A program made the position numbers and the translations under genes. DNA of 64,000 bases from Isoetes taiwanensis (lineage: Eukaryota > Streptophyta > Lycopodiopsida > Isoetales > Isoetaceae), in contig JAJEKV010000020.1 of the NCBI GenBank assembly GCA_021234155.1, forward strand, positions 6,060,563-6,124,562, read 5' to 3'. Position 1 is the stretch's first letter; each line of letters opens with the position of its first letter. Under the pieces are notes generated by a model. It had not been told where the DNA came from. It was given only the letters and a program-made list of their open reading frames with translations, and did not search any database. Positions 35,794-61,781 of this stretch are shown here, piece by piece.

Positions 35794-37444
35794 TATGACG
35801 TTCCAAGGGAATATACGCCATAAATACGTATATTCCTGGACCCGTCACCATACAAGTCTACCTAGGTAGCCTTGTATGCCTTGGATAAGTGGCAAGGGGT
35901 GCACATCTAAGTTAATTGTTTAACTTAGATAACCTTAGGATAAGGCTCATTTCCACATGGCCTTATCCTATTGGGCAACCGCCACACGGCCTTATCCTAG
36001 TGGTGCCACGTGGCATCCCAGGTGGACCCACACCTATATGAGCTCTAACCCTAACCCTAGACCCTTTTTCTCGACCTAGCACTGAACTCTCATCCACGTG
36101 CCCAAACCCCCGTTTGAAAGCACCGATTAAATCATAGCCTAGCACGGAGCAAAGAGCCCACGGAAGGTGTGTATGATCGTAGAGGGAGCAGGCCGAACCA
36201 CGCCTAGGAGCATGGAGACGCCGGGGAATGGGAGGAAGCGCTCGGAGGAGGTAGGTTGAGTAGAGTTCATGTTAGTTCATCCGGAAGTTAGCACTCGAGA
36301 TGGGTTAGTGATTCATTATCTAGAGTAGAGCCACCCTAGATCCTTTGTTGAACATCTTGAACCCTAATCAAGGAACTCTAACTATTAGTTAGCTATGTAT
36401 GATTAGGTTAAGATGTTCATATGATGTTGATGTTGATCATGACGTGATGTATGCGATATTGGTTGATCATGTTGCTCCTCTTGTATTGGGAAGGGGGTAG
36501 AGACCTAGGGCCATATGTAGTATGCTCCTAGTGTAGATCCCTTAGTTCCTATTAGTGGTGCGGCCTGTGCATAGGAACCCACTTAGGGCTATGGAGGCTA
36601 TGATGTGACTCAGCACCACATAACGGGCTAGAGGCAAGATGGAGGGTGGATCCTGCCGAAAGTGGGGGGGCCGGGGGATCCCATAGTGGGCTAGGCTTAT
36701 GGTGGGGTCACTTGCGTGTGGGCGAGCATGGGTCCGACACACCTCTGGGGCAATGGTGTCGCCCCGCCTCTCAAGAGTTGCAAGTGTCAGCTTGGCTCTT
36801 GTTTTGGGGGTTGGTCAGTGCGAATCGTGTGTTGCCACGACCAGAGCCGCCGTGGAGCCTCTAGACCCGGGGAAGGGGAGATGCAACCCTTCCTACCTCG
36901 TCGGACCAGGGAGATGCAACTTGGAGTAGTCCCGATGGGTGATGCCATGGGATTGCGTATCCGGAAGGTTAGAATCATGCCACAGCTTGATCTAGCCCAT
37001 CTGCAAAGTATGCACAGGAGGGGCGGATGGAGTGGTCAACCCTAGCCATTGTCTTACGCCAGCCCCGCCATTGTTATGACTCGGTCTGCTCTATCTTGAG
37101 GCCTATCCAGTCAGTCGCCTACCCTATGTGTCAGAGCCACGGGTAGGAGCTCTCATGTTTTATGGTATATGATTATGTTCTTTGCATCTATGGATATGCG
37201 GTTGAGCTACCCTTGGGGTAGCATATTGTATTGTATAGTATTGCTAGTTCTGACGTGTTTATGCTTCCGCTCTGATAGGAGCCCATAGGGGAAGGGCGCG
37301 CAAGACACCTTCGTGTCCCCTTCCCATGCTCCGGAGTTCCCCGAGTGCGGGATAGACGGAGGGCCTGTGCGGTTGTTGAGCCGGACGGGGGATTTCCTGC
37401 CGAGCGTACGGTCGAGCACCGTATGTTTAGCAGGGAGCGTCACA
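35794..37444 (+). repeat. TE-D 5' LTR
   Basis: It starts TATGACG (TGTGACG in the 3' copy) and ends GAGCGTCACA. The 3' copy matches throughout. Confidence 0.93.
36007..36060 (+). promoter_or_regulatory. TE-D LTR promoter candidate
   Basis: A G-box (CCACGTGG, about 36006-36013), then CCTATATGAGC (TATA-like, about 36033), then CTAACCCTAACCCTAG. This is the same arrangement as in TE-B. Confidence 0.45.
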
Positions 37445-37445: not shown

Positions 37446-37457
37446 TGGTATCAGAGC
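37446..37457 (+). other. TE-D primer binding site, tRNA-iMet type
   Basis: TGGTATCAGAGC, one base after the LTR. Confidence 0.88.
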
Positions 37458-37921: not shown

Positions 37922-37996
37922 TTTAAATACCCATGACACCTCATTTTCCCTCCAACCCTTTCCTCCACCATCTCTCTCTTGCTCAGCCTTACGTCA
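37922..37996 (+). promoter_or_regulatory. Candidate internal promoter of the TE-D H3-like gene
   Basis: TTTAAATA (37922-37929) lies about 90 bp before the ATG at 38019, followed by a C/T-rich leader containing ACGTCA. Transcription from here would skip the ATG at 37890 and make MARTK the true N-terminus. TE-E has a clearer TATA at the same relative place. Confidence 0.35.
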
Positions 37997-38018: not shown

Positions 38019-39122
38019 ATGGCTCGCACCAAACAGACAGCTAGGAAGTTCGGCGAGCGACCCACGCTCTCGATGGCGCAGGTAGCAGCGGGACGCCATA
38101 CGAAGAAAATCCCGGAGCACCTTCGACCTAAGAAGGGGGAAGAGGAGTTTCCCTCCAGCAGTAGTGACGCAACCTACCACGATGCAGAGGAGGAGGCGCC
38201 CAGCAGCAGCAGCTCTTCGTCGGCGGGCACCCAGAGAATTGGCGAGTCCCGACATTTTGGGCCCCACTCGGACACGGAGGTAGAGGAGCAGGTTGAAGAG
38301 CAGGTTGAAGAGGCGGGCCCTTCAGTGCCGAAGAAGAAGGGCAAGGAGAAGGTTACTGAGTGGCCGGAAGAGAGGGCTGCGAGGAAGAAGAGAGAGCGTG
38401 AGCGGGAGCTAAGGGAGCAGTGAAAGGTTAAGAGAAGGAATGACAGCCTCACGGATCAAGCCGTTATTGAAGAACCTCGTCAGGAGGAGGAAGCAGAGGA
38501 GCAAGAAGAGGAGGTAGAAGCAGAAGAAGAGGAAGACGAACGCGCCGGGGAGCCCTCAAACCCCGACGCTAGACCACCTTACCCGAAGTGGCCCAAGCCA
38601 CCCAAGGTGGTCAAGAAGCATATGGCGGGCGAACCGCAATCGCCCTGAGGGAGGAGCCTCTTCGACGCCGCCTGGCATTCGATTCCAGAATACCTCTGTC
38701 GGTGGACGAGGTATAATGACTGGTATTGCCGCCAGAACGTCGACCGCTACGTGAAGGGGGGCTGCCCTAGCAAGAACCAGCCCAAGCCGTCGCCGCCACC
38801 ACCGGAGAAGCCGAAGAAGGTCCACCATGGGCCTAACTTGCCACATGCCCGTGTTTTTCGAGAGATTAGGCACTTCCAACAGTGCACTAATCTCCTGATT
38901 AGGAAGGCACCATTCGAGCGGCTCATGCGGAAGGTGATGCAGGAGTTCCTCACCGACTATAGGGTGACGTCGCTCACAACTAGGGTGTTGCAGGTAGCCG
39001 CTGAGGCCGAGCTCACCCAGTTGTTCGAAGAAGGGAACCTCTGCGCGATCCACGCGAAGAGGGTGACCCTGATGCCCAAGGACATATACTTGGCACGCCG
39101 TATCCGCAAGGAGTACCCTTGA
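38019..39122 (+). pseudogene. Retrotransposon-borne histone H3-like protein (two in-frame TGA stops)
   Basis: One frame of 367 codons. Residues 1-10 are MARTKQTARK, identical to the histone H3 tail through K9; removal of Met would expose A1-R2-T3-K4. Residues ~11-275 are a charged linker (K/R then E-rich, then proline-rich). Residues ~277-367 are a complete H3 fold: [44 protein letters not shown] and [13 protein letters not shown]342, H345 and D355 match the H3-H3' contact residues. By hand the fold is roughly 60-65% identical to canonical plant H3. Loop 1 has H3 length, without the CENH3 insertion. TGA at 38421-38423 and 38646-38648 break this copy; both fit CGA to TGA. It sits between LTR and gag in sense orientation, so it is cargo of the element. 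Confidence 0.9.
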
Positions 39123-39898: not shown

Positions 39899-41409
39899 AT
39901 GGCGCCATCAAGCTTTGTTAGATGGTCCAATGACTCCAATCACATCCGTGAAATCCCTGCTGAGCAAGCCTTTCATGTCTTTGATCATCTCTTTGATCTC
40001 CTTGCCACCTTGACCAGAACCCCCTACTACACTAACATCATTTGCCAATACGATCAGCACATTCTACCCTCGGAAGTTAGCTTGCCACCTAGGGGAGGAA
40101 AATGGGTTTCCTTAGACACTCTTACCCAAGCCATAGGCTGGGGATCCAGGGGCAAGAATAGGCTGTGGGATAGAACCAGAAACATGCCGAACTACATGAC
40201 CTGTAAGCATCATAGGCATAGGTACCTCTCAAACCAAGCAGCCTTAGCTTTGTTCATGCAGTACAGGGCAGTTAACCAACCAGGAGAGCCGTCAATTCAA
40301 CCATTGGATTTGGCACCTCTCAACACTCGGGCAGCACAGATAGGCATCCACGAGATCGAGACTGCAGCGTACGAACACTACGGCTCCACATCAGAAACAC
40401 CTGTGTTGCAGATTGAGCAAGATTATGAAGAGGAAGAGGAGGAGAACCCAAGTTGGGAGATGAGGGAGGCAAGAAGGATGGAGAGGCGTCTAGCTCGACA
40501 ACAGGAAGTACCAAGGCGGGACTTCGAGCCACCAGTAGGTATCACGGCCCTCACCCCGGTGATCATCGACGGCGAGGAGTACATATTCGCCACCGATATC
40601 CTCAACCTTCCCTATTGTCAAGAAGAGAGCCTCAGGATGGATGAGCTCCTAGGCCTAATGGCACAAGAGCAGGGCAGTGACTTCATCGACTACTCCTACC
40701 AAGAGATCCCAAGGGAGGTAGCCGAGCGACACTCCTACGCAGGGGAAACTATGTCGGACATCCAGGCGTACCAACAGATAAGGCAGATGTTTCAGCAACA
40801 GCAACCCGTCATTCCAGAAGAAGAATTCCAGGAGATCCAAAGTAGGTTGTACAAGCCGGGAAGAGGCCCAAGCTCAAGCCGACCAGTGCGCTCCGTGAGC
40901 ATGCGTGAGTCATCTAGCAGCATCAATCTGGAGAACGCAACAAGAATGTGGAGGGACCACGAAGATCTTACGGCAATAGATGTTTTCGGCGATGCAGCTC
41001 GGAGGAGGAGTACGGGAGCCACAGGGCCGAACTCAGGTACTATCTTCCGGCCCTTAGCCAAGGACAGATGATAGTCTTCCACAAGGAGTTCAGCCCAAGG
41101 GGTGAAGAATCCGTGGCGCTCCTCATAGCACTCACAGGCTTTGGACAACATGCCAAGATAGATTACAGAATGGACCATGTTATCCTCTTCAAAAGATCCG
41201 TAGCCCTTCATGCCCTCGACTTCGCAAGGGGCCACCTCAGAGATGCGCACTTGTCAGTAGTGGCGGCAACTGCACCAGAACTTCCGGCACCACAGATGGC
41301 AAGAGCATTGGAGGGAGGATCGGCGGCAAGAATCCTACAGAACATGGGCAAGGGCATAGGATTCAAGAATGTCAAGAACTTCTTCAAGTCTATGAAGCGA
41401 CAGCGCTGA
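39899..41409 (+). pseudogene. ORFb: conserved accessory protein of unknown function
   Basis: From ATG 39899 the frame runs to 41071, and homology continues in the next frame to 41409, so there is a frameshift at about 40990-41040. The N-terminus (MAPSSFVRW...HIREI) matches TE-E ORFb (MATEAFISW...HITEV). Further shared blocks are R..MPNYMT versus R..LPTYMT, GEPSIQPLD versus GEPSIQPLE, RYYLP.L..G versus KYYLP.L..G, and DHVIL.KR..AL...DFA..HLR near the end. The middle is acidic and Q-rich. I recognise no known domain and no membrane segment; the C-terminus is basic (KSMKRQR). Its conservation next to the H3-like gene suggests a linked role. Confidence 0.75.
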
Positions 41410-41730: not shown

Positions 41731-42762
41731 ATGACACCGGAAGCAATCAACGCAAGGCTCGTCCAGATGAGGAACCAGATGCATCAGCTGATCCACTGGG
41801 CCACCCCATTGATGAATGCCCAAGAATATGCACCTGCTCCACCACCACCTCCACCGCTACCTCAGCAAGGCATCGAGGAAGGTCCACAGCCGGAAGGGCA
41901 GGACAATCAGGGGAATGTCAGAGACAGGAAGAGGAAAAGGAGAAACAGAAGGAGTCTAACACCACCTAGCTCCAGTTCATCAGACACTTCAGACAGTCAA
42001 GACAGTTCTAGCTCAGAAAGTGAGTCCGACACTCCACAGGTAAGAGCCAGGGCAAGGAAGGAAGATGAATATCAAAAGAAAGTTGACAGTGCTATGAGCA
42101 ATGTGTGGAAGACTAGGAAGTTGGGTCAGTTCTCAGGGAAGGACAGGTCAGGTATGGAGGCAGAAGCCTGGCTCGATGAGATGGAAGAGTTCGGCAACTC
42201 TTATGGCATGAAGGATAAGGATATAGGGAAAGTTGCTACAGCAAACTTGATAGGGGCAGCTAGAATCTGGTGGAAAGGCTATGCGAAGTCCAACAAGCTC
42301 AAAAGGAACAGTTGCAGATTCAAGACTTTCAGCAAGGCTTTTCGCAGACATTATGTGCCTAGGTCACATACTAGCAGGCAGATCCAGCAGTTCTACAGGT
42401 TAAACCAGGGTACATTGTCAGTAGCAAAGTATACAGAGGAATTTATGCGACTTAGACTCCATGTTCCTGGGGTGTCGGAAAGGCAAGCGGTTGAAACTTA
42501 TATTGAGGGATTGAACAGCAATATCAAGAGGCTAGTCCGAGCAATCAACCCTAAGTCAGTGGCAGAAGCCGAGGATAAAGCCATAAGTTTGGAAGAAGCT
42601 CCAGCAACGCCAGGAGAGAGACAGTCGGCCTTCAAAGGAAAGTCAACGGGGCAGTACCAAGGGCAACAATAGAGTAAGCAATCAGCAACTACGCCATCAG
42701 GAGGTCAGCAGCAAGGAAGAGCTCAGGGTAAGAACTTTGGGGACCGTAAGCCGCAGAATGCA
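41731..42762 (+). pseudogene. gag: TE-D Gag
   Basis: An N-terminal coil-like region and a proline run are followed by an R/K and S/D/E-rich stretch. A capsid domain follows at residues ~125-300 (QFSGKDRSGMEAEAWLDEM, ARIWWKGYAK, FRRHYVPRSH, LSVAKYTEEFMRL). A TAG at 42670-42672 interrupts it, consistent with CAG to TAG in a Q-rich stretch. The same frame continues into the zinc knuckle and pol, so gag and pol were a single frame. Confidence 0.85.
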
Positions 42763-43575
42763 TCAGGGGGCAGCGTGTTAAAGCGTATTCTAGACAGCCT
42801 GACGAAAGAGAAGAGACAGGAATGTATTGAGAAGAAGCTATGTTTCAGGTGCTTCCAGCTAGGGCACCGAACACATGATTGCCCATTCGTCATGCAGGCA
42901 GCGTTGGCAGAGCTTATGGATTGGGATTCACCAATAGAAGCGGATGAGGACGACGACCAGCATGAGGCCCAGGACTTCATAGATGGTGAGTGCCATATCT
43001 GTGCAAATATTGAGTCAGATGATATAGAAAATCAGTCGACAGTGATTGCGGCTGATGGAATCATAGATAGCAATCCATATGTAGTCCTCATAGACACAGG
43101 TAGCTCTCACAATTTCGCCTCTCCTAGGCTGGCTGCCCTAATGAAGAACAAAGTATTGAAGTCTAAGCCAAGGCCAGTTGCTATGGCAAACGGCGCCATT
43201 CGGCACACTAAGGGGAGGAGGATTACATTCGACATAGACCTTAGTGGAAGTAAGTGGCCGATGGGGGCAGAGGTCATGGAGATCGGAAGGTATGACCTTA
43301 TAGTAGGAATGGAGTTCCTAAAGCCAGTGAAAGCCATGATCGACTGCGACCGCAATGAAGTTGCCATGACAGCACCGGACGGCACCAAATTCATAGTGAG
43401 AGGTAAGAAGGCAGCTTCTTCTATGCAGTGTATTTCTTTGAAGCAGCTAAGGAAAAATATAGAAAGAAATAAGGTGGAGTACATTTTGAGATTAGAGGCA
43501 ATTGAGCCCAATAAACAGGATGGAAACGACCAAAAGGGGAAGCAGTTGCCCAAGCCAGTAGCAAGGCTTATTTCG

Positions 43576-43623
43576 GAATTCAAGGATGTATTTCCGGATG
43601 AATTCAAGGATGTATTTCCGGAT
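43576..43623 (+). repeat. 24-bp tandem duplication inside pol
   Basis: GAATTCAAGGATGTATTTCC plus GGAT occurs twice in a row, doubling eight residues (EFKDVFPD) in the segment before RT. The frame is preserved. Confidence 0.9.
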
Positions 43624-46309
43624 GAAATCCGGCAGCTACAACCTTATAGGGGTGTGGAGTGTGAGATCACATTAGCACCAGATGCTAAGCCTACCAGCAA
43701 GGCACCATACAGGATGAGCATTCCGGAGTTGGTTGAGCTCAAGAAGCAACTCCAGGAATTGCTTAAGCTTGGTTTTATTAGAGCAAGTGTGTCTCCTTTT
43801 GGAGCACCTATACTCTTCGTGAAGAAGAAAGATGGCAGTTTAAGAATGTGCATAGACTATCGCCAGCTCAACAAGCAGACGGTAAAGAATAAGTATGCAT
43901 TGCCAAGGGCGGATGATTTGATGGACCAGCTCCAAGGAGCAAAGGTATTCTCCAAAATTGACTTAAGGTAAGGATACCACCAAATAAGGATTAAGGAGGA
44001 AGATATCCATAAGACCGCCTTCAGAACGCGGTATGGTAACTTTGAGTTTACAGTAATGCCCTTTGGATTGTCGAATGCTCCAGCAACCTTTATGCGCCTC
44101 ATGAACGACGTCTTCAGGGATTTTCTAGATGAGTTTGTCATTGTCTTCTTCGATGACATTCTAGTCTACAGCAAGTCCATTGAAGATCATAGTCAGCATT
44201 TGAGAAGGGTATTAGAAAAGTTAAGGCGGCATCGTTTGTATGGAAAGCTCTCCAAATGCCACTTTGCTACTGAAAGAGTGGAGTACTTGGGCCATGTCAT
44301 ATCGGCGGAAGAAATCTCCACCGACCCCGCAAAGATTGAGGCAGTAGTGGATTGGCCAGCTCCAAAGAATGTGGCGGAAGTAAGAAGCTTTCTAGGTCTG
44401 GCAGGTTATTACAGAAAGTTCGTGAAGGACTTCGCTAAGTGGGCGTCCCCTTTGACGGACCTCACCAAGAGTGTTAAGGTGAAAGATTGGAGAGCACATT
44501 GGTTAGAGAATGTTCAAGCTTCATTTGAAAAGCTTAAGGAGGCTTTAACAACAGCACCAGTGCTAGTTCTGCCAGATCTAGACAAGGATAAGATAGTAGC
44601 AACAGATGCAAGTAAGATAGCAACAGGAGGAGTCCTTATGCAAGAAGGAAGAGTAATAGCTTATGATTCCAAGAAGTTGAACGACACCGAGCAGCGCTAT
44701 CCAACCTATGATCAGGAACTTCTAGCTATCGTCAAAGCCCTTCGTATTTGGAGGCATTATTTGCTTGGGAGGAAGTTTCAGTTAGATACTGACCACCAGA
44801 GCCTCCAATACATCTTTACCCAACCACTCCTGAATCTAAGGCAAAGGTGGATGGAAATTCCTAGAAGAGTATGATTTCGAGATTGCTTATAAGCCAGGTA
44901 AGTTGAATGTGGTCGCCGATGCTCTTTCTAAAAGACCTCTTGAAACGAGAACACATTGTAATGCTATATCAACTCTTTCCAGTGGGTATGGCAAGAAAAT
45001 TGAGGAGACATTACCATCTGATGGTGATTTCAAGGAGGTATGGGAAAGCCTCTCCAGGGAGGCTAGAACAGATAAGGAACGAGAAGCCTTCAAGCATTAT
45101 AAGAAGGAAGGCAACTTGTTGTACCATAAAGATAAGTTGTGTGTGCCCGAATTGTCAGGTATAAGGAAGCTAATCCTTCATGACACACACAACAGCCCAA
45201 TAGCAGGGCATGCAGGTTTTATGAAGACCTACTTCAAGATTCGAAATAGCTACTTCTGGCCGGGAATGAAGAAGCATATAGCAAGGTATATTCGTGAGTG
45301 CCGGTTGTGTCAAGAAACCAAAGGCGGAGCAGCCAATTCCGGGAGCCTTGGAACCTCTAGCAAAAGGCGAAATGCGAGAAGTGGGAAGTGGTAAGTATGG
45401 ATTTTATCCACAGGACTTCCCAAGACTCTTCGAGGCAAGGATGCATTGATGGTCGTAGTAGACAAATTATCTAAGATGGTACATTTTGTGCCTTGTAGAA
45501 CTCTGAGACAAAGATTAGATCTTGCCAAGCTATTTGTGAAGGAGATTTTTAGGCTCCATGGCATGCCTCGGGAGATAATATCTGATAGAGATTCCAAGTT
45601 TATGAGTGCTTTTTGGCAGGACCTCTTCAGACCATTCAGGGCGAAGCTCTCCATGAGCACACTTATCATCCCCAAACGGATGGTCGACGGAGAGGGCCGA
45701 ATCGAATCTTGGAAGACATGCTCGGAAGCTTTGTGTGGAATAAGCAGTCCAAGTGGGATGAGTATATCCACTTGGTGGAATTCGCCTACAATAGTGCCAA
45801 GCAGGAGTCATCTCAGATGTCTCCTTTCATGGTAAATTACGGGTACCAGTGCTTAACCCCGGATACTTGGCACAATCCCATGTCAAAGGTTGAAGTGTCC
45901 CAGCAGATGCTAGGAGATATGCAGCAGTTGGTGGAAGAAGTGAGGGGTTACCTCCTAGCAGCAAGAAGTCGGCAGAAGAGTGTAGCCGACAAGCACAGGA
46001 CCGTATACAAGGTAGGCGATAGCGTGTGGTTGAAGATCAAGGTCAAGCAAGCTAAGCTTCGGATTGGGAGTTGCAAGAAGCTTGCCCCTAGGTGGGCTGG
46101 TCCGTTCAAGATTTTGGAGAGAGTGGGCTCCCAAGCCTACAAGTTGGATCTTCCGGCCCATCTCAAAGTTCACAATGTTTTCCACGTAAGTTTGTTAAAA
46201 AGGCACAATCCTAACCCTGAGGAGGTTTTGGATACTCCAACCTTGTTGGAAATGACGGAGGAGCAAGTGGAAATCGTGCCTGAGTTACTTCTTGATAAGT
46301 CATTCAAGA

Positions 46310-46440
46310 AGACTAGGAGGTCTCAGTTCCTCCAGTATTTGGTCAAGTGGAAGCACTTGCCCGTGGAAGACGCGACATGGGTATTGAAGCAGGATTTGGA
46401 GAAGCAATACCCAGAATTTATGAAGGAGTTTGATGGGCGA
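46310..46440 (+). other. Chromodomain at TE-D integrase C-terminus
   Basis: RRSQFLQYLVKWKHLPVEDATW... has the chromodomain core YLVKWK..P.E..TW. Where many histone-binding chromodomains have an aromatic after KWKG, this one has H-L, so the methyl-lysine cage may be incomplete. In other chromoviruses this domain guides integration to H3K9-methylated chromatin. Confidence 0.82.
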
Positions 46441-47318: not shown

Positions 47319-48966
47319 TGTGACGTTCAAAGGGAATATATGCCATAAATACGTATATTCCTAGACCCGTCACCATACAAGTCTACCTAGGTAGCCTTGT
47401 ATGCCTTGGATAAGTGGCAAGGGGTGCACATCTAAGTTAATTGTTTAACTTAGATAACCTTAGGATAAGGCCCATTTCCACATGGCCTTATCCTATTGGG
47501 CAAACGCCACACGGCCTTATCCTAGTGGTGCCACGTGGCATCCCAGGTGGACCCACACCTATATGAGCTCTAACCCTAACCCTAGACCCTTTTTCCTGAC
47601 CTAGCACCTGAACTCTCATCCACGTGCCCGAAACCCCGTTTCGAGCACCGTTCGTCATAGCCTAGCCTGGAGCAGCAGCCCCTGGAAGGTGTGTATGATC
47701 GTAGAGGGAGCAGGCCTTCGAACCACGTCTAGGAGCATGGAGACGCCAGGAATGGGAGGAAGCACTTTTGGAGGAGATAGGTTGAGTAGAGTTCATGTTA
47801 GTTCATCTGGAAGTTAGCACTCCAGATGGGTTAGTGATTCGTATCTAGAGTAGAGCCACCCTAGATCCTTTGTTGAACATCTTGAACCCTAATCAAGGAA
47901 CCCTAACTATTAGTTAGCTATGTATGATTAGGTTAAGATGTTCATATGATGTTGATGTTGATCATGACGTGATGTATGCGATATTGGTTGATCATGTTGC
48001 TCCTCTTGTATTGGGAAGGGGGGTAGAGATCTAGGGCCATATGTAGTATGCTCCTAGTGTAGATCCCTTAGTTCCTATTAGTTGCGGCCTGTGCATAGGA
48101 ACCCACCGGGCTATGGAGGCTATGATGTGACTCAGCACCACATAACGGGGCTAGAGGCAAGATGGAGGGTGGATCCCTGCCGAGTGGGGGCTTCAGGGGA
48201 TCCCATAGTGGGCTAGGCTTATGGTCGGTCACTTCGTGTGGGCCGAGCATGGGTCCGACACCTCCTGGGGCAATGGTGTCGCCCTGCCTCTCAAGAGTTG
48301 CAAGTATCAGCTTGGCTCTTGTTTTGGGGGGTTCAGTCGGGTACGAATCGTGTGTTGCCACGATTCTCTAGCCGCCCGTGGAGCCTCTAGACCTCGGGAA
48401 GGGGAGATGCAACCCTTCCTACCTCGTCGGACCAGGGAGATGCAACCTGGAGTAGTCCCGATGGGTGATGCCATGGGATTGCGTATCCGGAAGGTTAGAG
48501 TCATGCCACAGCTTGATCTAGCCCATCTGCAAAGTATGCACAGGAGGGGCGGATGGAGTGGTCAACCCTAGCCATTGTCTTACGCCAGCCCCGCCATTGT
48601 TATGACTCGGTCTGCTCTATCTTGAGGCCTATCCAGTCAGTCGCCTACCCTATGTGTCAGAGCCACGGGTAGGAGCTCTCATGTTTTATGGTATATGATT
48701 ATGTTCTTTGCATCTATGGATATGCGGTTGAGCTACCCTTGGGGTAGCATATTGTATTGTATAGTATTGCTAGTTCTGACATGTTTATGCTTCCGCTGTG
48801 ATAGGAGCCCATAAGGGAAGGGCGCGCAAGACACCTTCGTGTCCCCTTCCCTTATGAGTTCCCCGAGTGTGGGATAGACGGAGGGCCTGTGCGGTTGTTG
48901 AGCCGGACGGGGGATTTCCTGCCGAGCGTATGGTCGAGCACCGTATGTTTAGCAGGGAGCGTCACA
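47319..48966 (+). repeat. TE-D 3' LTR
   Basis: It starts TGTGACGTTC and ends GAGCGTCACA. It is nearly identical to 35794-37444. TGTCC follows it. Confidence 0.93.
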
Positions 48967-48971
48967 TGTCC

Positions 48972-50060: not shown

Positions 50061-51721
50061 TGTGACGTCCCCTACTCGTATACGGTGCACTCACCGTATA
50101 CAAACAGGAGTTCATCCCCCATACCAGCTCCATGCTAATACAGGGCCCTCCACATGACACTGCAACCGTGTCGGGTTCCAGTGGGAAGAGTGGAAGGGTC
50201 ATTACACCGTCTTCCTCGGGGCCTACCTAGCTTTGCGGGCGTAAACATACATGTCGTTAGCACATACATCAACATCATATGACCATCACGAAGGATGGTC
50301 CTCCACATATCTGCATAGACAAAGATCAAGATCGCACATAGGAAATCCTACCCAAGGCTCGGACTCAAGGGATGACCGGACGCTTGGGTCTCTCAGAGTT
50401 CATTGCGCATGGAATTCATGGCAATGGATTTGGCTGGCATATGAACATGGCTTAGGGTTGTCCACTCCATCCGCCCCTCCTGTACGCACTTTGCAGAGTG
50501 GTCTGAAAAGTGTCGGGGCCTGACTGTAGCCCGCCGGATGCATAGCCAAGAGGGCTACTCCTGGGCTCATCTTCCCGCCCGATGGGGCGGTAGGGATCAC
50601 TCCCTCCAGATCTACATGCCGACTCAAGGTGGCTAGAGGGCCTTTGCCGTGATCGGGACTGAACCCACCGGAAGGTGAACACCACCCCACGGGTGTCGAG
50701 CCCATGCCTTGCCCCTTGACGCGGTGGCAAGCCATTGGACCTAGCCACAATGGTTCCCGGTAGGCCTTACACACCAGAGGAACCGTTCATGAGTCAGGAC
50801 ATGAACCTCCTTCTCAGCCAGTCTGGCCCCTTCACCCACATCCCGGTGTGGCTCTTGCGCACAGGCCGAATCTACAGTGTGCTAGAGAGGCTACTCTAGG
50901 AGCATCAACTACAAAGCTTTAGGTCTCTACCCCCCTTCCCAATACAAGGAGTTCATAGAGATACATCATCCATATACATCACAGAAGAACTAAAGAACAA
51001 GATCTAACCTACAACATAGAGTTAGGTTCTTTAGTTAGAATCTGCTATCTAGAGATCTGGATGGCCAATCTAATAGGCTAAACCTACTGATTCAATGACT
51101 AAATTAGGGTTTAGACTATCTAATTGGCCAAATACCTGATCCTTGAGGGGCTCCTCCTGACCTGAGCTCGACCATCCTGCTGAAACGCTCGAATCTAGAG
51201 AAACTAAGGATGCAACTCTCCTAGCCCGAGTCTGGGATGCGGTTTTGGCTGTTGAGGCAGCCAAAACAGAGTCCTGAAGCCCTAAAATCAAAAATTGGGC
51301 TAGTTAGGGTTTCCTACTCTATATAGACAAGGGAGTTGGCTAGGGTTTCCAATTATCCCCTTTTGGCATGTGGGATAATTGGAACATGGGCCCACTTGCC
51401 TTTAAGGGCTAGGTGGCCAAATGTGCACACATGGAAATGTGTGCCCACATTAATGTGTACCTTGGAAAAGGTGCACATTAATTGCACCTATGGGTGTGGC
51501 CCACTTGGCATGAAGTGTCCACTTGGAAATGTGTGCCCACATTAATGTGTACATTGGAAAATGTGCACATTAATAGTTGCACATATTTCTGGCAAGTTGC
51601 CCCCTAGGGCTACTCACCTGGCTACACGCTAGCGTACACGTCACCGGAGTGGGCGGTACGCGTGACGCAGGCAAAGCGGTATATACGCCCCGGGCGATAT
51701 CTTTGGCTTTGGAACGTCACA
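50061..51721 (-). repeat. TE-E 3' LTR
   Basis: On the plus strand it begins TGTGACGTCCCC and ends GGAACGTCACA. It matches 61782-63445. An internal partial duplication contains GTGTGCCCACATTAATGTGT twice (about 51440 and 51530). Confidence 0.93.
51304..51349 (-). promoter_or_regulatory. TE-E LTR promoter: TATA between two telo-boxes
   Basis: On the minus strand AAACCCTAG (51341-51349), then CTATATAGA (about 51318-51327), then AAACCCTAA (51304-51312). The same module is in the 5' LTR at about 63032-63078. AAACCCTA is the telo-box of many plant ribosomal-protein and histone promoters. Confidence 0.5.
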
Positions 51722-51734
51722 TTCTCCCCACCTT
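51722..51734 (-). other. TE-E polypurine tract
   Basis: On the minus strand AAGGTGGGGAGAA directly precedes the 3' LTR. Confidence 0.85.
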
Positions 51735-52620
51735 GAATTGATGCTGTCCGCAGCATCGTGGGTCTCCCCACCTTGGGATCAACCTGACCTGCAACAACTT
51801 GATACATACGATGGCTACTATAATTCCTACACATTTATTAAAATTACCTTAAGGTAATATTTTTATGACATTATCACATTGTTGTATTATACCATAACTT
51901 ATCAATTCACAACATTACTAACAGATTACTCCAAGATTCACTTAACATTACAATTAAGTTCATCAAAATTTAGAATTAACGTCCGAGGTACTCTTCATTC
52001 CTTGCAACACATTCCAACAAAATTTGTGTTGCAAGTCTTCGTAGCCCGACCTCCTTGCCCTCCGGAGCGCTCTACTGGCCTGCAGGTCGACACTACGTTA
52101 GTACCATTTAATTATTAAATAAAATTTTGGTTATATGGTGACCACCCCACCTATCTACATGGATGCATGGCTAATCTCCCGGCGTAGGAAGAGGGTGAAT
52201 CTTCCATTATGGCCGCGGAGACAGCGCCTATATGCCTATATGCCGCTCATGCCTACACCTCTAGTTGCCCAGCGTGGAGGATATCCTTCTCGCGTGGGGG
52301 GCGCGAAGGATAGATTCCTCCTATCAAAGCATATATGGGGCTAAAGGTGCTTTCCCTATCAATGCATTCCTTCATGACCTCCTTTCTCTCGAGGTCGTCT
52401 ACTTCCGTGGGACAGAAGTAGACTTTCTAATCTACCTTCCACTCTCCCAAACGGAAACGCGGTCATGCCTACATTGACATTACACCCGCGCCCTAGAGAT
52501 CACCGTAGTGGTCCCATCATCGGTAACAACGCATGCACCCATACTAAGCATAGGTTGCATGCGAGATTAATCTTACTACACAAGAATTAACCTACACAAA
52601 TCGACATGCCCGAGCCGATT
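51735..52620 (-). other. TE-E 3' noncoding region
   Basis: No gene is recognised between the chromodomain and the polypurine tract. The sequence is AT-rich near 51840-52010 and GC-richer beyond. Confidence 0.5.
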
Positions 52621-53152
52621 TCTTGAGGAGATGACCTTGCCGCCCCATTGCTCCATAAACCGTGGATCTTTGCTTTACTAAATCTTTCTTAAGTACCCAC
52701 GCCGCGTCTTCCACCGGTAAGTGTTTCCACTTGACCAAATACCGAGGAATTTCGATCTCCTCGTTTTCTTGAAAGCTTTATCAAGAATCAATTTCGAACT
52801 ATCTCCAAATGCTCCTCCGCCATTTCCAACAACGTTGGCGAATCCAAGACTTCATCCCGGATTTGGAGTATGCTTCTTCAACAAACTCACGTGGAAGACC
52901 TTATGAATCTTTAGGTGTCTTTGGCAAATCTAGCTTGTAGGATTGATTACCTACTCTCTTGACTATTCCGAAGGTCCAGCCCACCTTGGAGCAAGCTTCT
53001 TGCAATTGCCGATCCCGAAGCCACCGCTTCACCTTGATCTTGAGCCAAACATCATCTCCAACTTTGAACTCTCTTATCGTTCGATGCTTGTCTACGATAC
53101 TCTTCTCGACGACTTCTTTGCCGCTAGCGTGATAACCTCGAACTTCTTCCAC
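52621..53152 (-). pseudogene. pol: TE-E integrase C-terminus and chromodomain
   Basis: The segment 53152-52901 reads VEEVRGY...DKHRTI..FKVGDDVWLKIKVKRWLRD, the integrase C-terminal region. The chromodomain core (YLVKWKHLPVEDAAWV on the minus strand, about 52770-52660) lies in another frame. Several single-base losses shift the frame here. Confidence 0.75.
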
Positions 53153-54743
53153 GAAGCCGCGATATCGGCCAACATCTCGGCCGCGAAACTTCCACTTTTG
53201 ACACGGGGTTGTGCCAAGTATCCGAGTTAGGTAATCGATAGCCGTAATTGATCATAAACGGCGACATTTGGGATGATTCCTGCTTGGTGCTATTGTATGC
53301 AAACTCCACCAAGTGAATAAATTCTTCCCACATACTTTGCTTATTCCAGACATAGTTTCGTAGCATGTCCTCTAAAATCCTGTTGGTCCGCTCCGTCTGA
53401 GGATGATATGCCGTGCTCATGGATAGCTTCGTCTGGATTGTCGCAAAGAGGTCTTGCCAAAAGGCGCTCATGAACTTCGGATCCCTGTCGGAGATGATCT
53501 CCCTTGGCATGCCATGAAGCCTGAAGATCTCTTTGGTGAAGAGCTTTGCTGTATCCATAGCTGTATCTGTGGTCCTGCAAGGCACAAAATGTGCCATCTT
53601 AGACAACTTGTCGACCACTACCATCAAAGCATCCTTCCCTCTTGCTGTCCTTGGGAGTCCTGTGATGAAGTCCATGCTGATTACCTCCCATTTAGCGTTT
53701 GGCACCGCTAATGGCTCTAATGCCCCTGGAATTCGAAGCTGCTCCGCCTTTGTCTGCTGACATAGCTGGCATTCCTTGATGTAGCGAGCTATTTGCTTCT
53801 TCATTCCTGGCCAATAATAGCTGCTGCGCACCTTGAAATATGTTTTCATGAATCCCGCATGGCCAGCTATTGGGCTGTTGTGCGTGTCATGGAGGATCAA
53901 CTTCCTTACACCTGATGATTCGGGTACGCACAACTTGTTCTTATGGTATAACAGGTTGCCTTCCTTCTTATAATGCTTGAAGGCCTCCCGCTCTTTATCT
54001 GTTCTAGCCTCCTTAGAAAGGCTTGCCCATACTTCTCTGAAATCCACATCCGTTGGCAAGGACTCTTCAATCCTCTTACCAAAGTCGCTGGAGAGCGTCG
54101 AAATTGCATTGCAATGCACTCTAGTTGTCAGGGGATGCCTTGAAAGCGCATCTGCTACCACGTTGAGCTTCCCCGGCTTGTAGACTATATCAAAGTCATA
54201 TTCTTCGAGGAACTCCATCCATCTCCGCTGCCTCAGATTAAGGTGTGGTTGCGTGAATACATATTGGAGGCTCTGGTGGTCTGTATCCAACTGGAACTTC
54301 CTTCCCAAAAGGTAGTGCCTCCAAATTCTTAATGCCCTGACAACCGCAAGCAATTCCTGATCGTGCGTTGGGTAGCGCGTTTCGGCGTCGTTCATCTTCC
54401 TGGAATCATACGCTACCACGCGCTCTTCTTGCATAAGCACTGCACCTGTAGCTATCTTACTCGCGTCAGTCGCTACAAGCTTATCTTTTTCCGGGTCCGG
54501 CAGGGTTAAGACTGGGGCTGTTGTTAAAGCTTCCTTCAACAATTCAAACCCTGCTTGGGCTTTCTTGTGCCAATGCTCTGCCCAATCTTTCACTTTCTCC
54601 GCCCGCGTCAAGTCTGTTAGCGGGGCTGCTATCTTGGCAAAGTTCTTTACGAACTTCCTGTAGTACCCTGCTAGGCCGAGGAAACTTCTGACTTCATGCA
54701 CATTCTTCGGGCGCCGCCATCGAATCACCGCTTCAATCTTCAT
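53124..54743 (-). CDS. pol: TE-E Pol fragment: RT thumb, RNase H, integrase core
   Basis: 539 codons without a stop. It opens with the RT end ([20 protein letters not shown]). RNase H follows ([48 protein letters not shown]). The integrase zinc module is [16 protein letters not shown]...CQLCQQTK, and the catalytic Asp residues are in SMDFITGLP and IISDRDPKF. The catalytic Glu region reads [10 protein letters not shown], shorter than the usual YHPQTDGQxE form, so a few residues are missing. It is the best preserved part of TE-E and is close to TE-D. Confidence 0.88.
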
Positions 54744-54770
54744 GGGTCCGTTGAGATGCCTTCGCCGAGA

Positions 54771-55260
54771 TCACATGACCAAGGTATTCCACCTTCTCGC
54801 AAGGCGGTGGCACTTCGACAACTTGGCGTACAACTGGTGTCTCTTCAACTTCTCCAGCACTCTTCTCAAGTGTTGTACGTGCTCTTCAAGGGATCTGCTA
54901 TACACCAAAATGTCATCAAAGAAAACAATCACAAAGGTGTCCAGGAACTCCCTGAAGATATCGTTCATGAGCCTCATGAATGTTGCGGGGGCATTTGATA
55001 AGCCGAAAGGCATTACCGTGAACTCATAATGCCCATACCGCGTTCTGAAGGCGGTCTTATGGATATCTTCTTCCTTTATCCTGATCTGATGATAACCTGA
55101 CCTTAAGTCGATTTTGGAGAAGATCTTTGCACCTTGAAGCTGATCCATCAAGTCGTCTGATCTTGGAAGCGCATATTTGTTCTTAATGGTGTGCTTGTTC
55201 AACTGCCTATAGTCTATGCACATCCTTAGACTGCCATCCTTCTTCTTAACAAAGAGAATG
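54771..55260 (-). pseudogene. pol: TE-E reverse transcriptase palm
   Basis: [51 protein letters not shown] and [12 protein letters not shown] are present in order, with the catalytic Asp pair intact. The frame is lost near 54771 (…LSKCH) just before the thumb segment. Confidence 0.85.
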
Positions 55261-56330
55261 GGCGCCCAAATGGCGTAAACACTAGGTCTAATAAAACCTA
55301 GGTCAAGCGGCTCCCAAGAATCGCTTCTTTAGCTCCGACAATTCCTGCGTTGTCATTCTATATGGAGCCTTGCTCGTTGGCTTTGTTCCTGGCTCGAGTG
55401 CAATCTCGCACTCAACTCCCCTGTATGGAGGGAGCTGCTTGATCTCATCTGGAAAGAGATCATGGAATTCGCGGATCAGCTTAGCTACTTGCTTCGCAAC
55501 TTGTCGAGCACCTTGTCTTCTTTGGTTCCTTCCGATTCAGCTCGCTAATCTCAAGCTTGAAGATGTATGCCACTTGCTCACTCTTGATGCACTTGAACAG
55601 CCGTTTAGAAGACATACACGCGCATGATGGGGAACAACTTCCTTACTGTTATCTCAATGATCTTGCCGGGCGTTGGGAAGGTCACCTTCCGCTTCCACCG
55701 CCGATAATGGCCCCCGCCGCCCGAGGTACTCCATTCCTATGATCAAGTCATACTTGCCAATGCCCATTACCTGCCCCTATCCGATATTAATCCCCGGCAA
55801 GTCGATGTCGGTTAATTCTCTTGCCCGCCGCCCCGCCTTTATTGCACCACTTGCTAAGACAACGGGTCTTGGCTTTGACTTTAGCGGCTTCAACTTCAAC
55901 ATTTGAACCATTCGGGGGATGCAAAGTTATGGCTGCTTCCCGAGTCTATCAAGACTATGAAGGACTTGGCCTTGGCCTTCCCTACCGTGGAAATTACCTT
56001 ATCGGGCTCTCTCGCTTGCTCAGATCTATTGCGGCAAAGATATGACACTCACCCCAATGTAGTCGCTGGCCTCTTCGCCGCCGCCGCTCGGACCGGGGCA
56101 TCCCAATCTCCCAACTCCGCTAGAGCCGCACTCATGACGAGGGGCAGTTTGTCGTCCTATGGTTCTGGCCGGAAGCACTCGGGCACAGCTTGCTTTTCTA
56201 TGCATTCCCGCCTCTTTTCCTTGGGCATTGCCTCGCAAAAGGATCGCGACCGCTTTGGAGTAGTTTGACCCCTCCCGCTTGTCCTTGAAGGACACCCGCT
56301 TCTTCTCCGGCTTTGTTTCCCGGGTTCCCA
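55261..56330 (-). pseudogene. pol: TE-E zinc knuckle, protease and pre-RT region, heavily frameshifted
   Basis: Translations in shifting frames match TE-D: a damaged knuckle region (ECIEK... near 56210), SAALAELGDWDAPV near 56130, and protease-like [15 protein letters not shown] near 55880 and IGKYDLIIGMEYL near 55750. No single frame is usable. Confidence 0.65.
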
Positions 56331-57420
56331 CCATATGGGGTCTAGCCGGACTGGACTAGCTGCCCCGGGGCTATAGCTTCCCGTCGCCTTGCCTTTATCC
56401 CGAAATACCGGCCGCTTACGCCTGGCTATTCGGAGGTCCCCACCCCCGCAAGCTTATAGCCTTGGATTCCGCTTCGACATTGTCCCTAGGGTTTATTGCC
56501 CTCACAAGCTTATGGATCTCCTCATTCAGCCCCTCAATATAGCTTTCATCGCATGCTTCTCTCCCAACTTCGGTGACATACTGACCTTAGTCTCATGAAT
56601 TCCTCTCAGATATTTCGACTGATTTGTTGCCTTGCTGCAACCTGTAAAACCGGCCTTGCATCATCTTTGGACTTATGTTCCCTCGAACGTAATGGCGCTT
56701 TGAAGGCTTTAGCAAACTTTACGAACTTACAAGCATCCCCGCTTAAGCCATGTGCCTTTGCATAACCCTTCCACCAAATCCGGCGGCTCCTTTCAAGTTG
56801 GCTGTTGCAACTCTGCCTTTGTCCTTATCCTTCATGCCATAAGCATTTCGTGCTTTCGCTCATTTCGTCCAGCCCATGCCTCTGCTTCCAATCCCCGACT
56901 GTTCTCCCCGAGAACTGTTCGATTCGGGCCTTCCATACATTGCCGGTCGCGGAATCTACCTTCTTCTGGTAGTCGAGGCCCCGGTGTCTCTTTTGTCGTC
57001 CATCGGGGTATTCCTCCGCCTTCAGATCCATTGGATTTCTCGAAGCCTCGTTTCTTCCTCTTCCTGAGGTGAGTCCGAAGTCCGGAACTTGAGTCGGAAG
57101 ATTCCGGGCTGGAGGATCTCCTTCTCTTGCTCCTCTTCTTGTCTTTTCCTGCCCTCCGAGCTGATGCTTGCGGCAACTGAGCGTTGCCCACCGAACCCAC
57201 TCCTGCTTGCGCGGACAGTAATGCCTTTATCTGCTCCAGGTCCGTCCTCATCTGGGCTATCTCCTCCTCTGGGGTCATGGGTTCCATATCCTCAAATAGG
57301 TTCCTTGCCGGGGGTGGTCTGGGTGGGGTTTGCTCTTCTATAAGATCTCGCAGTTGTCGTTCCCCTGCGTTTAGGCCTCTAGCTGCATGCACAAGCAATT
57401 CATGGTTATATGATTAGTTC
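56331..57420 (-). pseudogene. gag: TE-E Gag remnant
   Basis: From about 57400: AGERQLRDLIEEQ, a proline patch, MTPEEEIAQMRTDLEQIKALL, then a K/R and S/D-rich region like that of TE-D Gag. Near 56960-56830 the frame breaks (…FRDRQCMEGPNRTVLGENSRGLEAEAW versus SNVWKTRKLGQFSGKDRSGMEAEAW in TE-D). The capsid part is scattered over frames. Confidence 0.7.
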
Positions 57421-57563
57421 CTTTGTTCTCTTGCATTGATTATGCTTGTTGGTATAATTGTGGGGCAAAATACATCAACAAAACATTTAAAGTGCAATAG
57501 GATTTATATTCATATATCATATAATATTTTAGATACAAAAAGTCTCCGGGATCAAGAGTCTGA
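57421..57563 (-). other. Spacer between TE-E ORFb and gag
   Basis: About 140 bp of AT-rich sequence, equivalent to 41410-41730 in TE-D. No feature is recognised. Confidence 0.5.
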
Positions 57564-59120
57564 CTAGTCTTGAAATCGCCGGTAAGACGGGTTGTCCTCG
57601 AGAAACTTCTTTACTTGGGCTGTACCTACTGTACTTCCCAAGTTCCTGAGTATATCCCTTGCTGTTCCCCCTCGGATGGCGGATGCTAGCTCTTCCACCC
57701 GTCTATGGGAGGTATGAGCTGCCGTTACTGCCAACCTACCTTGTCGAAGGTGGGGTACTGCAAAGTCGAAGATGCCCAAGGCTGTTTTCCGCTTCACTAA
57801 AATGACATGGTCCACCTTTTCTGATAGGCGTGCGTGCATGCCAAATCCCTAGAAAGTGCTACCAAAGATCTCGCAGACGCCTTCCTCTCCCGTGGGCTGA
57901 AGCGGCCAGAAATATTATTACTCTACCCTCTGTTAGGAGCGGAAGGTAATATTTGAGTGTCGCCCGGCACTCCTCCACGTGCCCCTGAGGTGCCCCTGTG
58001 CCTTGATGCATACTGGTCTACGGGTACTTGAACTAATTCCTTGTAATCGTGGAAGAGCGTTCGTACACTTGTCAGGTTTGTGGCTCTCCCTTGGAATTTT
58101 GCTATCTGTTCTTGTGAGGAAGAAGACTCCCCTTGAAGTACTCTTGTTGTCTTCCCCCTTATTCCCATCTCAAGCCTCGGTGCTATAAACTCCTCCTCTC
58201 AGAGGGAAGTTCCTCCGACATCATACCTCCGAGATAGTGCCGTAAGCTTCAATGTCCGAGATGGTGTGTCCTGTGTAAGTGGTCGCCTCTCGTATTTTTG
58301 TACCGGAAAATCTTCCGTTTCTTGGTCGATGAAGTCTTCTAGATCCGGGCTGTTGCCGTAGGGAGGTGAAGGAGTTCATCGACGCGGTAGCCTCCGGCCC
58401 CCAAGCATTGGGGAGGTTTTGATGTCATTTAGCAGCAAGTATTCCCGTCCTTCGACTATGACCGGTGCTAGACTTGTTATTCCTGTACCCAATTGGTTGT
58501 GCAATCCTCTGGTGGGTGGTCCAAAAACCAAGCGGGTGATGTCTTGTTCCGCTTCCCCGGCGTTCCTCCTCCCGGGTCCACCTCTATGTCATCCTCGCTT
58601 CCCTGCTCGGAGTCTTCACTCTCTTGGATGCTTCTCGCTATGGTCTCTTCAGATTCAAGCCAGAGGCGCGTTCGGTCATTCCAAGGCCCAAGGGTGTGAC
58701 TTCTAGCGGCTGAATTGATGGTTCACCTATTACGGTTTTTCGCCCCTATATACTAGATATAGCGCTAAGGTCGTGGTTGTAGGAGAAGAAGACTTTGCCA
58801 TTGCTTGTTAGGGTCATGTAGGTTGGTAAGCGGTTGGTTCTTGTTCCTCAATGCCTTGGCAATATTGGGTACATGATTGAGGGTCGCTGTTTGCAATGCG
58901 GTCCTTGGTACAAAGTACCCTATGCATGGCGGTATCTTCGTAAGCTAGGGACAACTTTCTCTTGGAATTCCTCGCAGGACTTGGCCGGCAGAAAGGATTG
59001 GAGTTCGTGGTTCTTTGAAAGGTCAAATTCTTTTTGAAATACTTGGAATACTATATTGACATCTACTTCAGTGATGTGGGGGGAGGCGCTATACCAACTG
59101 ATGAAGGCTTCTGTAGCCAT
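57564..59120 (-). pseudogene. TE-E ORFb homologue
   Basis: It starts at ATG 59120 (MATEAFISWYSASPHITEV) and ends at 57564 (...VKKFLEDNPSYRRFQD). Blocks shared with TE-D ORFb are listed in that entry. They include GEPSIQPLE near 58715, EECRATLKYYLPLL near 57950 and DHVILVKRKTALGIFDFA near 57800. Stops near 58920, 58855 and 58755 and frameshifts near 57960 disable it. The function is unknown. An AAACCCTA telo-box and a TATA precede its ATG. Confidence 0.72.
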
Positions 59121-59231
59121 GGCGAAGAGCGTGCTGCCGATGTCAAACGAAACTGGGAGCGCCTGACTAAGCTGAAAGATCGCCTCAATTGCGGGAGCAG
59201 TTCTGTGGTTGAGGTTTAGGGGTTATGCGGG

Positions 59232-59272
59232 GATATATATAGGGAATTTATGCCCTAAAATTTTTAGGGTTT
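59232..59272 (-). promoter_or_regulatory. Internal promoter module of TE-E ORFb
   Basis: On the minus strand AAACCCTA (59265-59272) is followed by CCTATATATATC (59232-59243), about 115 bp upstream of the ORFb ATG. Confidence 0.5.
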
Positions 59273-59423
59273 CTAAAACTCCTGACATTTGGGATGAGGC
59301 TAATGTTTCTTGGTTAATTTGAGGCTCGAAGTGGCTTGCCTATAGTCTTAGGGTTCTAATGCAACAAATTTTGGTCGATTTGGGTATGTCTAGCTCAAGT
59401 TATGAACTTGGGAAGTTCGGGCG

Positions 59424-59490
59424 GCTCTAAGAGTGCGCGGGAGGGGTGTTAGGTTGGGACCTAACTAGGCTCTGGCGCACTCTTGGAGTC
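59424..59490 (-). repeat. Compound hairpin repeat, TE-E copy A
   Basis: Outer arms CTCTAAGAGTGCGC and GCGCACTCTTGGAG enclose an inner stem GTTAGGT-TGGG-ACCTAAC. It lies between the H3-like gene and the ORFb promoter. Confidence 0.8.
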
Positions 59491-59632
59491 ACTGGTGAAA
59501 TTACTCCAATTGTTCCAAAACTAATACTGTGCCTAATGAATGTACATTCTTAAACAACTATATATTTTATTATTCAAAATTTTATACATCAGATATAATC
59601 CTGTTAGTTACAAAAAAATAATTTCCCTTCTA

Positions 59633-60833: not shown

Positions 60834-60940
60834 TGTAATGACAAATATTCCCGATTTGGAGCAGGGCGCCAAAAGATCGGCTAATGAGAAGGAGCTCGTG
60901 GAAGCACGGGAGAAACCTAAAAAATGAGCCTATGTCCCGT

Positions 60941-60968
60941 AATTTATAGGGTTGGATTTTTAGGGTTT
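60941..60968 (-). promoter_or_regulatory. Internal promoter module of the TE-E H3-like gene
   Basis: On the minus strand AAACCCTA (60961-60968) is followed by CCCTATAAATTACGG (TATA at 60941-60948), about 110 bp upstream of the ATG at 60833. This is the same layout as at ORFb in this element. Confidence 0.55.
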
Positions 60969-61058
60969 GGTCGATTTAATCTTCTGGTGGTTTTGTTGGC
61001 AAAAGTCTCCCTGTCTTGGGCGAAATTGGGGTCTTGTTTGGTGCTGCTTCTTCGAATG

Positions 61059-61125
61059 GCTCTAAGAGTGCGCGGGAGGGGTGTTAGGTTGGGACCTAAC
61101 TAGGCTCTGGCGCACTCTTGGAGTC
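61059..61125 (-). repeat. Compound hairpin repeat, TE-E copy B
   Basis: It is almost identical to copy A at 59424-59490, and lies about 100 bp upstream of the H3-like gene's promoter module. Confidence 0.82.
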
Positions 61126-61269
61126 GTCGGCCTTCTCTGCTCCAACACACCCAATTTACACAATTTACATGCTGTTACTCCCTAATTTAAGCATTTTAAG
61201 CAGGATCCTATCATTACTTTGACCCTTTTTATTAATTTACGTTTAATTTTAAGGGTCACTTTTGGGGAT

Positions 61270-61337
61270 GACTCTAAGAGTGCGCGGGAGGGGTGTTAGG
61301 TTGGGACCTAACTATGCTCTGGCGCACTCTTGGAGTC
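61270..61337 (-). repeat. Compound hairpin repeat, TE-E copy C
   Basis: It has outer arms GACTCTAAGAGTGCGC and GCGCACTCTTGGAGTC and the same inner stem. One base differs in the loop side (CTATGC for CTAGGC). Confidence 0.82.
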
Positions 61338-61484
61338 GCTGTTCCAAAAGTGACTTGTACTTAATGTTTTTCGATGTTTTAACATACAATTCTAGCTATT
61401 TCGAACTCTTTTGATCGGGATTTCATCTTTTATCTTACCATTTGGAGTTCCTAAGGTCAAGTTCTAGGGTTTATATGGGGTGAC

Positions 61485-61768: not shown

Positions 61769-61780
61769 GCTCTGATACCA
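61769..61780 (-). other. TE-E primer binding site, tRNA-iMet type
   Basis: TGGTATCAGAGC on the minus strand, one base inside the 5' LTR. Confidence 0.88.
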
Positions 61781-61781
61781 C

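Follow-up and report, generated by a model that had tools for sequence, protein, structure and literature searches.

Transposable elements that spread a captured histone gene have been described in fungi. In P. fijiensis, 784 H3-like hAT copies inactivated by repeat-induced point mutation (RIP) were reported along with comparable cases from five other genomes, in the Mycosphaerellaceae (PMC6710886, accessible part of the paper), and hAT DNA transposons of Pyrenophora tritici-repentis carry an H3-like gene in 26 very similar copies (PMC3538342, likewise in part). Here we describe H3 genes in retroelements of the lycopod Isoetes taiwanensis. The window, by which we mean the whole stretch of 64,000 nucleotides that was analyzed (contig JAJEKV010000020.1, forward-strand positions 6,060,563 to 6,124,562), contains a Ty3 chromovirus, TE-D, with an H3 gene between its 5′ long terminal repeat (LTR) and gag. 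The gene is shared with a second element in the window, TE-E, and with a further lineage, F2, found elsewhere in the genome, and its protein sequence is under purifying selection.

Like the fungal hAT elements, these are transposable elements in which a captured H3-type gene has been multiplied many times. The fungal carriers, however, are DNA transposons whose copies either arose recently and are highly alike or are RIP-inactivated, whereas those of Isoetes are LTR retroelements of deep lineages with a gene under purifying selection; also unlike the fungal case, the tip of the Isoetes tail is set apart by a long linker, and one lineage has an orphan N-terminal domain. A hAT-borne identity was rejected, because LTRs and gag-pol, not a hAT transposase or terminal inverted repeats, surround the H3 gene. 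As far as the literature searched shows, the only earlier cases of histone capture by transposable elements are in DNA transposons of fungi, where the cargo is dead or recent.

Singlet histones are also found in DNA viruses, where bracovirus H4 and the H3 of nucleocytoplasmic large DNA viruses are thought or shown to enter host nucleosomes (PMC9145170, in the part available). The Isoetes elements resemble these viruses in being selfish genomes with one histone, but they are LTR retroelements amplified within one genome. Marseillevirus encodes multi-histone proteins; here too an H3-like fold is virus-borne, but it is fused to further histone-like sequence. An IMG/VR contig that looks like a giant virus (L070, 1-4012) encodes a 356-aa H3-containing protein and a separate 90-aa H4-like frame; in the former, the H3 part continues into other histone-like sequence and has diverged strongly, at 37% to F2. 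Pathogens practise histone mimicry, and the Isoetes proteins are like such mimics in being foreign proteins that bear a short stretch of exact H3-tail sequence, but unlike them in joining it to a full H3 fold. With plant group II chromoviruses the elements share LTRs, a primer-binding site (PBS), the gag-pol order and a chromodomain after the integrase; no histone gene is mentioned for that group in the accessible portion of its description (PMC3350952).

A first-pass annotation of the window, made from the sequence alone, had stated that it knew of no described plant retrotransposon with an H3 gene. This holds for the literature searched (titles and the starts of abstracts, with few subscription papers and no bioRxiv), which contained no retrotransposon or plant element with such a gene, but the statement has to stand beside the H3-carrying DNA transposons already described in fungi. 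The word "histone" is absent from the main text of the genome papers of I. taiwanensis (PMC8566536, available part) and I. sinensis (PMC10541799).

Results

An H3 gene within the boundaries of a Ty3 chromovirus

The gene consists of the following parts.

38019..39122, plus strand: TE-D histone H3-like gene, between the 5′ LTR and gag, in sense orientation
38019..38048, plus strand: MARTKQTARK codons, the H3 tail through K9
38751..39119, plus strand: H3 histone fold and the proline-rich stretch before it

The C-terminal 123 amino acids of the frame matched Pfam Histone with an E-value of 3.2e-30 and solved H3 chains of the PDB with 3.8e-30. The profile comparison that the first-pass annotation had called for thus placed the fold far above chance, and its reading of a tail, a charged linker and an H3 fold in one frame was borne out; chance similarity was rejected (E 3e-30). 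The linker between tail and fold comprises about 260 residues and is rich in E, K, P and S. Alignment of the fold with canonical H3 was free of gaps from alpha-N to alpha-3. Loop 1 of CENH3 is longer than that of canonical H3; since loop 1 of TE-D is not longer and no gaps are present, a CENH3 identity was rejected. Two in-frame TGA codons, at 38421 and 38646, which the first-pass annotation had not mentioned, indicate that the TE-D copy in the window is not intact.

The element around the gene is 13.2 kb long, lies on the plus strand and is bounded by LTRs and exact 5-bp target site duplications (TSDs).

35794..37444, plus strand: 5′ LTR, with TSD TGTCC at 35789-35793
37446..37457, plus strand: PBS, TGGTATCAGAGC
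39899..41409, plus strand: orphan open reading frame 2 (ORF2; frames 39899-41071 and 40948-41409), between the H3 gene and gag
41731..42672, plus strand: gag (Pfam Retrotrans_gag, 1.1e-17)
42775..45394, plus strand: protease, reverse transcriptase (RT), RNase H and the start of the integrase, recognized by its zinc-binding domain
46279..46434, plus strand: chromodomain of group II type at the integrase C-terminus (Pfam Chromo, 4.3e-12)
47319..48966, plus strand: 3′ LTR, with TSD TGTCC at 48967-48971

TE-D is thus a Ty3/Gypsy chromovirus by its LTRs, 5-bp TSD, PBS, gag-pol order and C-terminal chromodomain, and the LTR and target-duplication boundaries that the first-pass annotation had drawn around the H3 gene were confirmed. 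The order of its parts is 5′ LTR, H3 frame, ORF2, gag, protease, RT, RNase H, integrase and chromodomain. The Kimura two-parameter (K2P) distance between the two LTRs is 0.050. Pfam gave no convincing match for ORF2.

A second H3-bearing chromovirus in the window

TE-E is a complete LTR chromovirus on the opposite strand and has its own H3 gene.

50061..63445, minus strand: TE-E, flanked on each side by the TSD ACCGT
50061..51721, minus strand: 3′ LTR
53124..55313, minus strand: RT, RNase H and integrase core
57594..59120, minus strand: relative of ORF2
59633..60352, minus strand: H3 fold and part of the linker (Pfam Histone, 2.8e-22)
60399..60872, minus strand: frame with the tail MARTKQTARK (ATG at 60833) and linker
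61782..63445, minus strand: 5′ LTR, with the PBS adjoining at 61768-61781

Its layout follows that of TE-D: tail frame, fold, ORF2 relative, gag remnants, RT, integrase and a decayed chromodomain. The K2P distance of the LTR pair is 0.043, and the fold is 46-47% identical to canonical H3. Tail and fold lie in different frames, so this copy, too, is broken. An AlphaFold model of the TE-E protein was weak (mean predicted local distance difference test score 57.8), with helices in the H3 region. Four short stretches, from a set chosen by protein score, represent kin of TE-E. Three of them, at 54%, 60% and 69% identity, cover the tail and begin with MARTKQTARK, after which the kin at 54% and 60% differ both from the kin at 69% and from TE-D; the fourth ends before the tail.

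Genome-wide abundance and retention of the H3 gene

The MARTKQTARK codon pattern occurred at 1051 sites of the genome (516 + 535), compared with none for a reversed control. These sites, together with the LTR and TSD bounds, led us to reject a host H3 gene around which elements had been inserted. Host genes probably make up a small share of them: a canonical H3 query returned 15 near-canonical genes (96-98% identity, no stops), to which any intron-bearing genes are to be added, as intron-split genes may be missed by this search. The next 135 rows had 71-86% identity, many of them in open frames of 400-567 aa.

A genome search with the TE-D fold yielded 150 scored matches, the best of 9423 first-look candidates ranked by protein score. 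All 150 matched the fold (85-99% identity), many were in open frames of 300-430 aa, and 137 had no stop within the match when counted by hand. As copies chosen by protein score are biased, we based retention and the analysis of selection in TE-D entirely on a sample independent of H3, obtained by a gag search (127 scored of 15554 candidates) from which the 4.8 kb upstream of 40 copies was taken, going down the list. H3 fold sequence was present in 31 of these 40 relatives, so the observation that the first-pass annotation had named as fatal to its claim, absence of the gene from relatives everywhere else, was not made. The 5′ leader was found in 29 copies, and each of these carries fold sequence, which is partly decayed in the set. 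The nine copies lacking the fold also lack the leader and hence look deleted, truncated or interrupted there; some of them may be an H3-less variant with another leader.

To sample F2, we took 13 of the 135 non-host rows (L050-L062), as twelve stretches of 1.5-2.1 kb and one of 8 kb. In the long F2 frames the fold is preceded by a basic linker and, ahead of that, by an orphan N-terminal domain of some 230 residues; the N-terminal H3 tail is missing. Identity to canonical H3 is 85-87% for the fold of F2 and 54-65% for that of TE-D. Among 2138 candidates drawn from 5.8 billion proteins, the N-domain and linker had no relative at E<=1e-3. Downstream of four F2 copies, a relative of ORF2 was recognized by eye in all four and an RT in three (L066, L068 and L069), with no RT seen in the stretch from L067; L069 also encodes a chromodomain (Pfam Chromo, 4.9e-9). 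The RT and chromodomain make F2 a chromovirus lineage as well. Its ORF2 is weakly similar to that of TE-D (21-35% identity, best E 2e-11). Four F2 proteins (L053, L054, L059 and L062) have RKSG before the fold, preceded by A in L053, L054 and L062; this stretch may be what is left of residues 7-10 of H3.

The H3 gene is thus a clade-wide gene of elements in at least three lineages, TE-D, TE-E and F2. The first-pass annotation was right that TE-D carries it, but had seen one element where a whole clade, including a neighbor in the same window, does so.

The H3 protein sequence is under purifying selection

The ratio of nonsynonymous to synonymous change (dN/dS) was calculated by the Nei-Gojobori method (NG86) as median dN over median dS, from codon rows without frameshifted parts and with saturated-dS pairs dropped; pairwise values are not independent. 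In TE-D it was 0.08 for the fold (31 rows including the window copy, with a stop in 5), 0.19 for the tail region (30 rows, stop in 1) and 0.18 for the linker (31 rows, stop in 9). The first 100 codons of gag gave 0.15 (41 rows, stop in 3), and ORF2a of the gag-picked copies gave 0.16. When pairs were binned by dS, the values above dS 0.1 were 0.12-0.20 for the fold and 0.13-0.16 for gag. Nine close F2 copies gave 0.10 for the N-domain, 0.28 for the linker and 0.03 for the fold, the last being biased low because F2 copies were picked by H3 likeness, which affects the N-domain less. The H3 gene is retained, and its protein sequence is under purifying selection about as strong as that on gag. Dead cargo as a general account was rejected by the fold, tail and F2 values.

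For the tail tip, the ATG was placed by DNA alignment from the leader in 29 copies, independently of the tail sequence. MARTKQ was found in 26 of the 29, and codons 1-5 showed 69 synonymous versus 3 nonsynonymous differences. Among the 34 TE-D-lineage rows, which were picked by MARTKQ, K9 is kept in 31 and position 7 is mostly A or Y. In the intact tail rows of the gag-picked copies, S10 is replaced by F, A, Y, P, T or H. The N-terminal part of TE-D and TE-E thus reads ARTKQT followed mostly by (A/Y)RK, and the normal tail is unrecognizable from residue 10. A short exact H3-tail sequence is maintained by selection in these two lineages, as in a histone mimic; only about the first ten tail residues are kept before the long linker, and a contiguous modifiable tail joined to alpha-N is not present.

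Descent of the captured gene

RT sequences of five H3-bearing elements were placed in a tree with 33 database hits, thinned from 120 listed. The five form one clade (100/98), within which TE-D and TE-E group together (99/90), and the clade stands apart beside the database hits, among which there were no named-clade references; identity to the 23 hits compared was 48-67%. The H3 tree also joined TE-D and TE-E (96/92) and did not separate F2 from host H3. The supports in both trees are rough, because the bootstraps had not settled. V84, T85 and H53 are common to the TE-D and TE-E folds. Taken as phylogenies of sequences, the two trees show that the H3 genes of TE-D and TE-E descended together with RT. 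The gene is thus kept across copies, selected and co-inherited with pol, in agreement with the first-pass view of it as sense-oriented cargo of the element.

The simplest account would be one capture of H3 before the lineages split. Alternatively, F2 may have acquired its fold from host H3 separately from TE-D and TE-E, a question of origin that stands beside those of mechanism. We regard separate capture as possible but somewhat doubtful. The much higher identity of the F2 fold to canonical H3 (85-87% versus 54-65% in TE-D and 46% in TE-E), its position in the H3 tree and the different N-terminal parts speak for it; the tested monophyly of the five RTs, the common order of H3, ORF2, gag and pol and the weak but significant similarity of ORF2 speak against it and favor a single ancestral capture with different rates.

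Conserved residues, a candidate promoter and flanking hairpins

We tabulated residues in 31 fold rows (17 of TE-D, 1 of TE-E and 13 of F2), with one decayed TE-D row left out. All 31 retain C110, H113, R116, D123, K115, K122, R69 and R72; T118 and L126 are each retained in 30. K56 is changed to Q or M in TE-D (X in one row), and neither TE-D nor TE-E has kept K79. From the nucleosome literature, we take the tabulated residues to serve the H3-H3 interface, the dyad (K115 and K122) and the DNA-facing surface (R69 and R72). As interface and dyad residues are kept, the element-encoded H3 could plausibly pair with H4 and with another H3; DNA wrapping may be looser.

Two kinds of sequence feature flank the TE-D gene.

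37922..37929, plus strand: TATA-like element TTTAAATA, 97 bp before the ATG of the H3 gene
39329-39405 and 39531-39607, plus strand: two strong hairpins 3′ of the H3 gene, 202 nt apart (z -8.0 and -6.1)

In 30 of 34 TE-D-lineage rows an exact TTTAAATA precedes the ATG by 79-100 bp (by 95-100 bp in 29), and TATAAA precedes it by 109-115 bp in all four TE-E-lineage rows, within two kinds of flank; the rows of both lineages had been picked by MARTKQ. A TATA-like element was present in none of 12 F2 rows and in one of three host H3 rows (L063, at -69). This distribution suggests that the H3 gene may have its own internal promoter in the TE-D and TE-E lineages.

The TE-D hairpins were found in 17 of the 40 gag-picked copies. 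TE-E has hairpin repeats beside its H3 gene at 59412-59491, 61047-61126, 61259-61338 and 61474-61553. Hairpins are 202-215 nt apart within each array, with z from -5.7 to -8.3 in the five that were folded, and their sequences differ between TE-D and TE-E. The spacing is close to the nucleosome repeat.

Surroundings of the elements

The flanks of TE-D (35200-35793 and from 48972 onward), read by eye, resemble a long interspersed nuclear element (LINE), and TE-D seems to have inserted into LINE-like sequence. Remains of a related chromovirus lie at 19380-21634 on the plus strand, with RT pieces and a chromodomain 82% identical to that of TE-D; neither H3 nor gag was recognized near them within the window.

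Discussion

We propose that a clade of Ty3 chromoviruses captured an H3 gene and kept it as a protein-coding gene beside gag-pol. The product would be an H3 variant in which an H4-pairing fold is joined to an element-specific N-terminal part. Expressed from its own promoter, it could enter the H3-H4 chaperone pathway of the host and be incorporated into nucleosomes in cis or in trans, where most of the modifiable tail would be replaced but the K4/K9 handle kept. The outcome might be weakened silencing, or chromatin shaped for its encounter with the chromodomain integrase. That the protein is a retroelement-encoded H3 variant built into chromatin is the reading we prefer, with our confidence evenly divided between its being right and wrong. 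A bolder version, which we find doubtful, is that the variant on element chromatin or at target sites forms with the chromodomain integrase a closed loop of self-recognition and anti-silencing, offering a tail that can be marked at K4 and K9 but lacks the other silencing marks, and that the clade has depended on its encoded histone since before its lineages diverged.

The first-pass annotation had put forward three functions: packaging of complementary DNA (cDNA), marking of the integration site and action as a decoy. The last of these corresponds to a soluble mimic, a protein off the DNA whose ARTKQTxRK end would titrate H3K4 or H3K9 enzymes or readers, or H3-H4 chaperones, and so blunt silencing. 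The decapeptide is exact or nearly so while the residues next to it change completely between lineages, the long charged linker would free the tail from the nucleosome surface, and the fold is altered at DNA-facing sites. Yet constraint on the fold, which is common to all lineages, is no weaker than that on the tail region (0.08 versus 0.19), F2 keeps the fold without an N-terminal tail, and a decoy needs no whole fold with an intact H3-H3 interface. We therefore judge a soluble mimic unlikely.

Less probable still, in our estimate, is an integration or cDNA factor, an H3-like protein in the pre-integration complex that would, for instance, bridge the group II chromodomain or integrase and target nucleosomes or coat cDNA. 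The presence of a histone in a retroelement does point to the chromatin steps of the cycle, and these elements bear chromodomains and keep H3 together with gag-pol. However, no fusion of H3 to gag or pol was seen, and the TE-D frames scanned contained no partner histone, which leaves cDNA packaging as the least supported of the three functions proposed at first. Moreover, in the TE-D chromodomain, read by eye from the sequence, the W45 position is kept but those of Y24 and Y48 are non-aromatic; with two of the three cage aromatics (as defined in PMC3350952, accessible portion) absent, direct reading of methyl-lysine on this H3 tail is doubtful. A non-adaptive hitchhiker, that is, a captured H3 pseudogene copied along with the element as in the fungal hAT elements, would fit the broken state of both window copies, the functionless capture documented in fungi (PMC6710886, in part) and the stops in 5 of 31 fold and 9 of 31 linker rows, but is highly improbable in view of a dN/dS close to that of gag, the retention of H3 through deep divergence and the predominance of stop-free fold matches, even as chosen by protein score.

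For the analysis of such genomes, the element copies mean that H3 counts and annotation can be swamped. The natural H3 variants that they encode reveal the parts of H3 that selection preserves once the remainder can vary freely. As for the retrotransposons themselves, a large plant clade of them has a core histone among its lasting genes, maintained by selection, and in two lineages the tip of the H3 tail is almost unchanged. Our results suggest that these elements make a part of the chromatin that is normally used to silence them. Whether a mobile element is able to rewrite its own silencing chromatin can now be tested directly.
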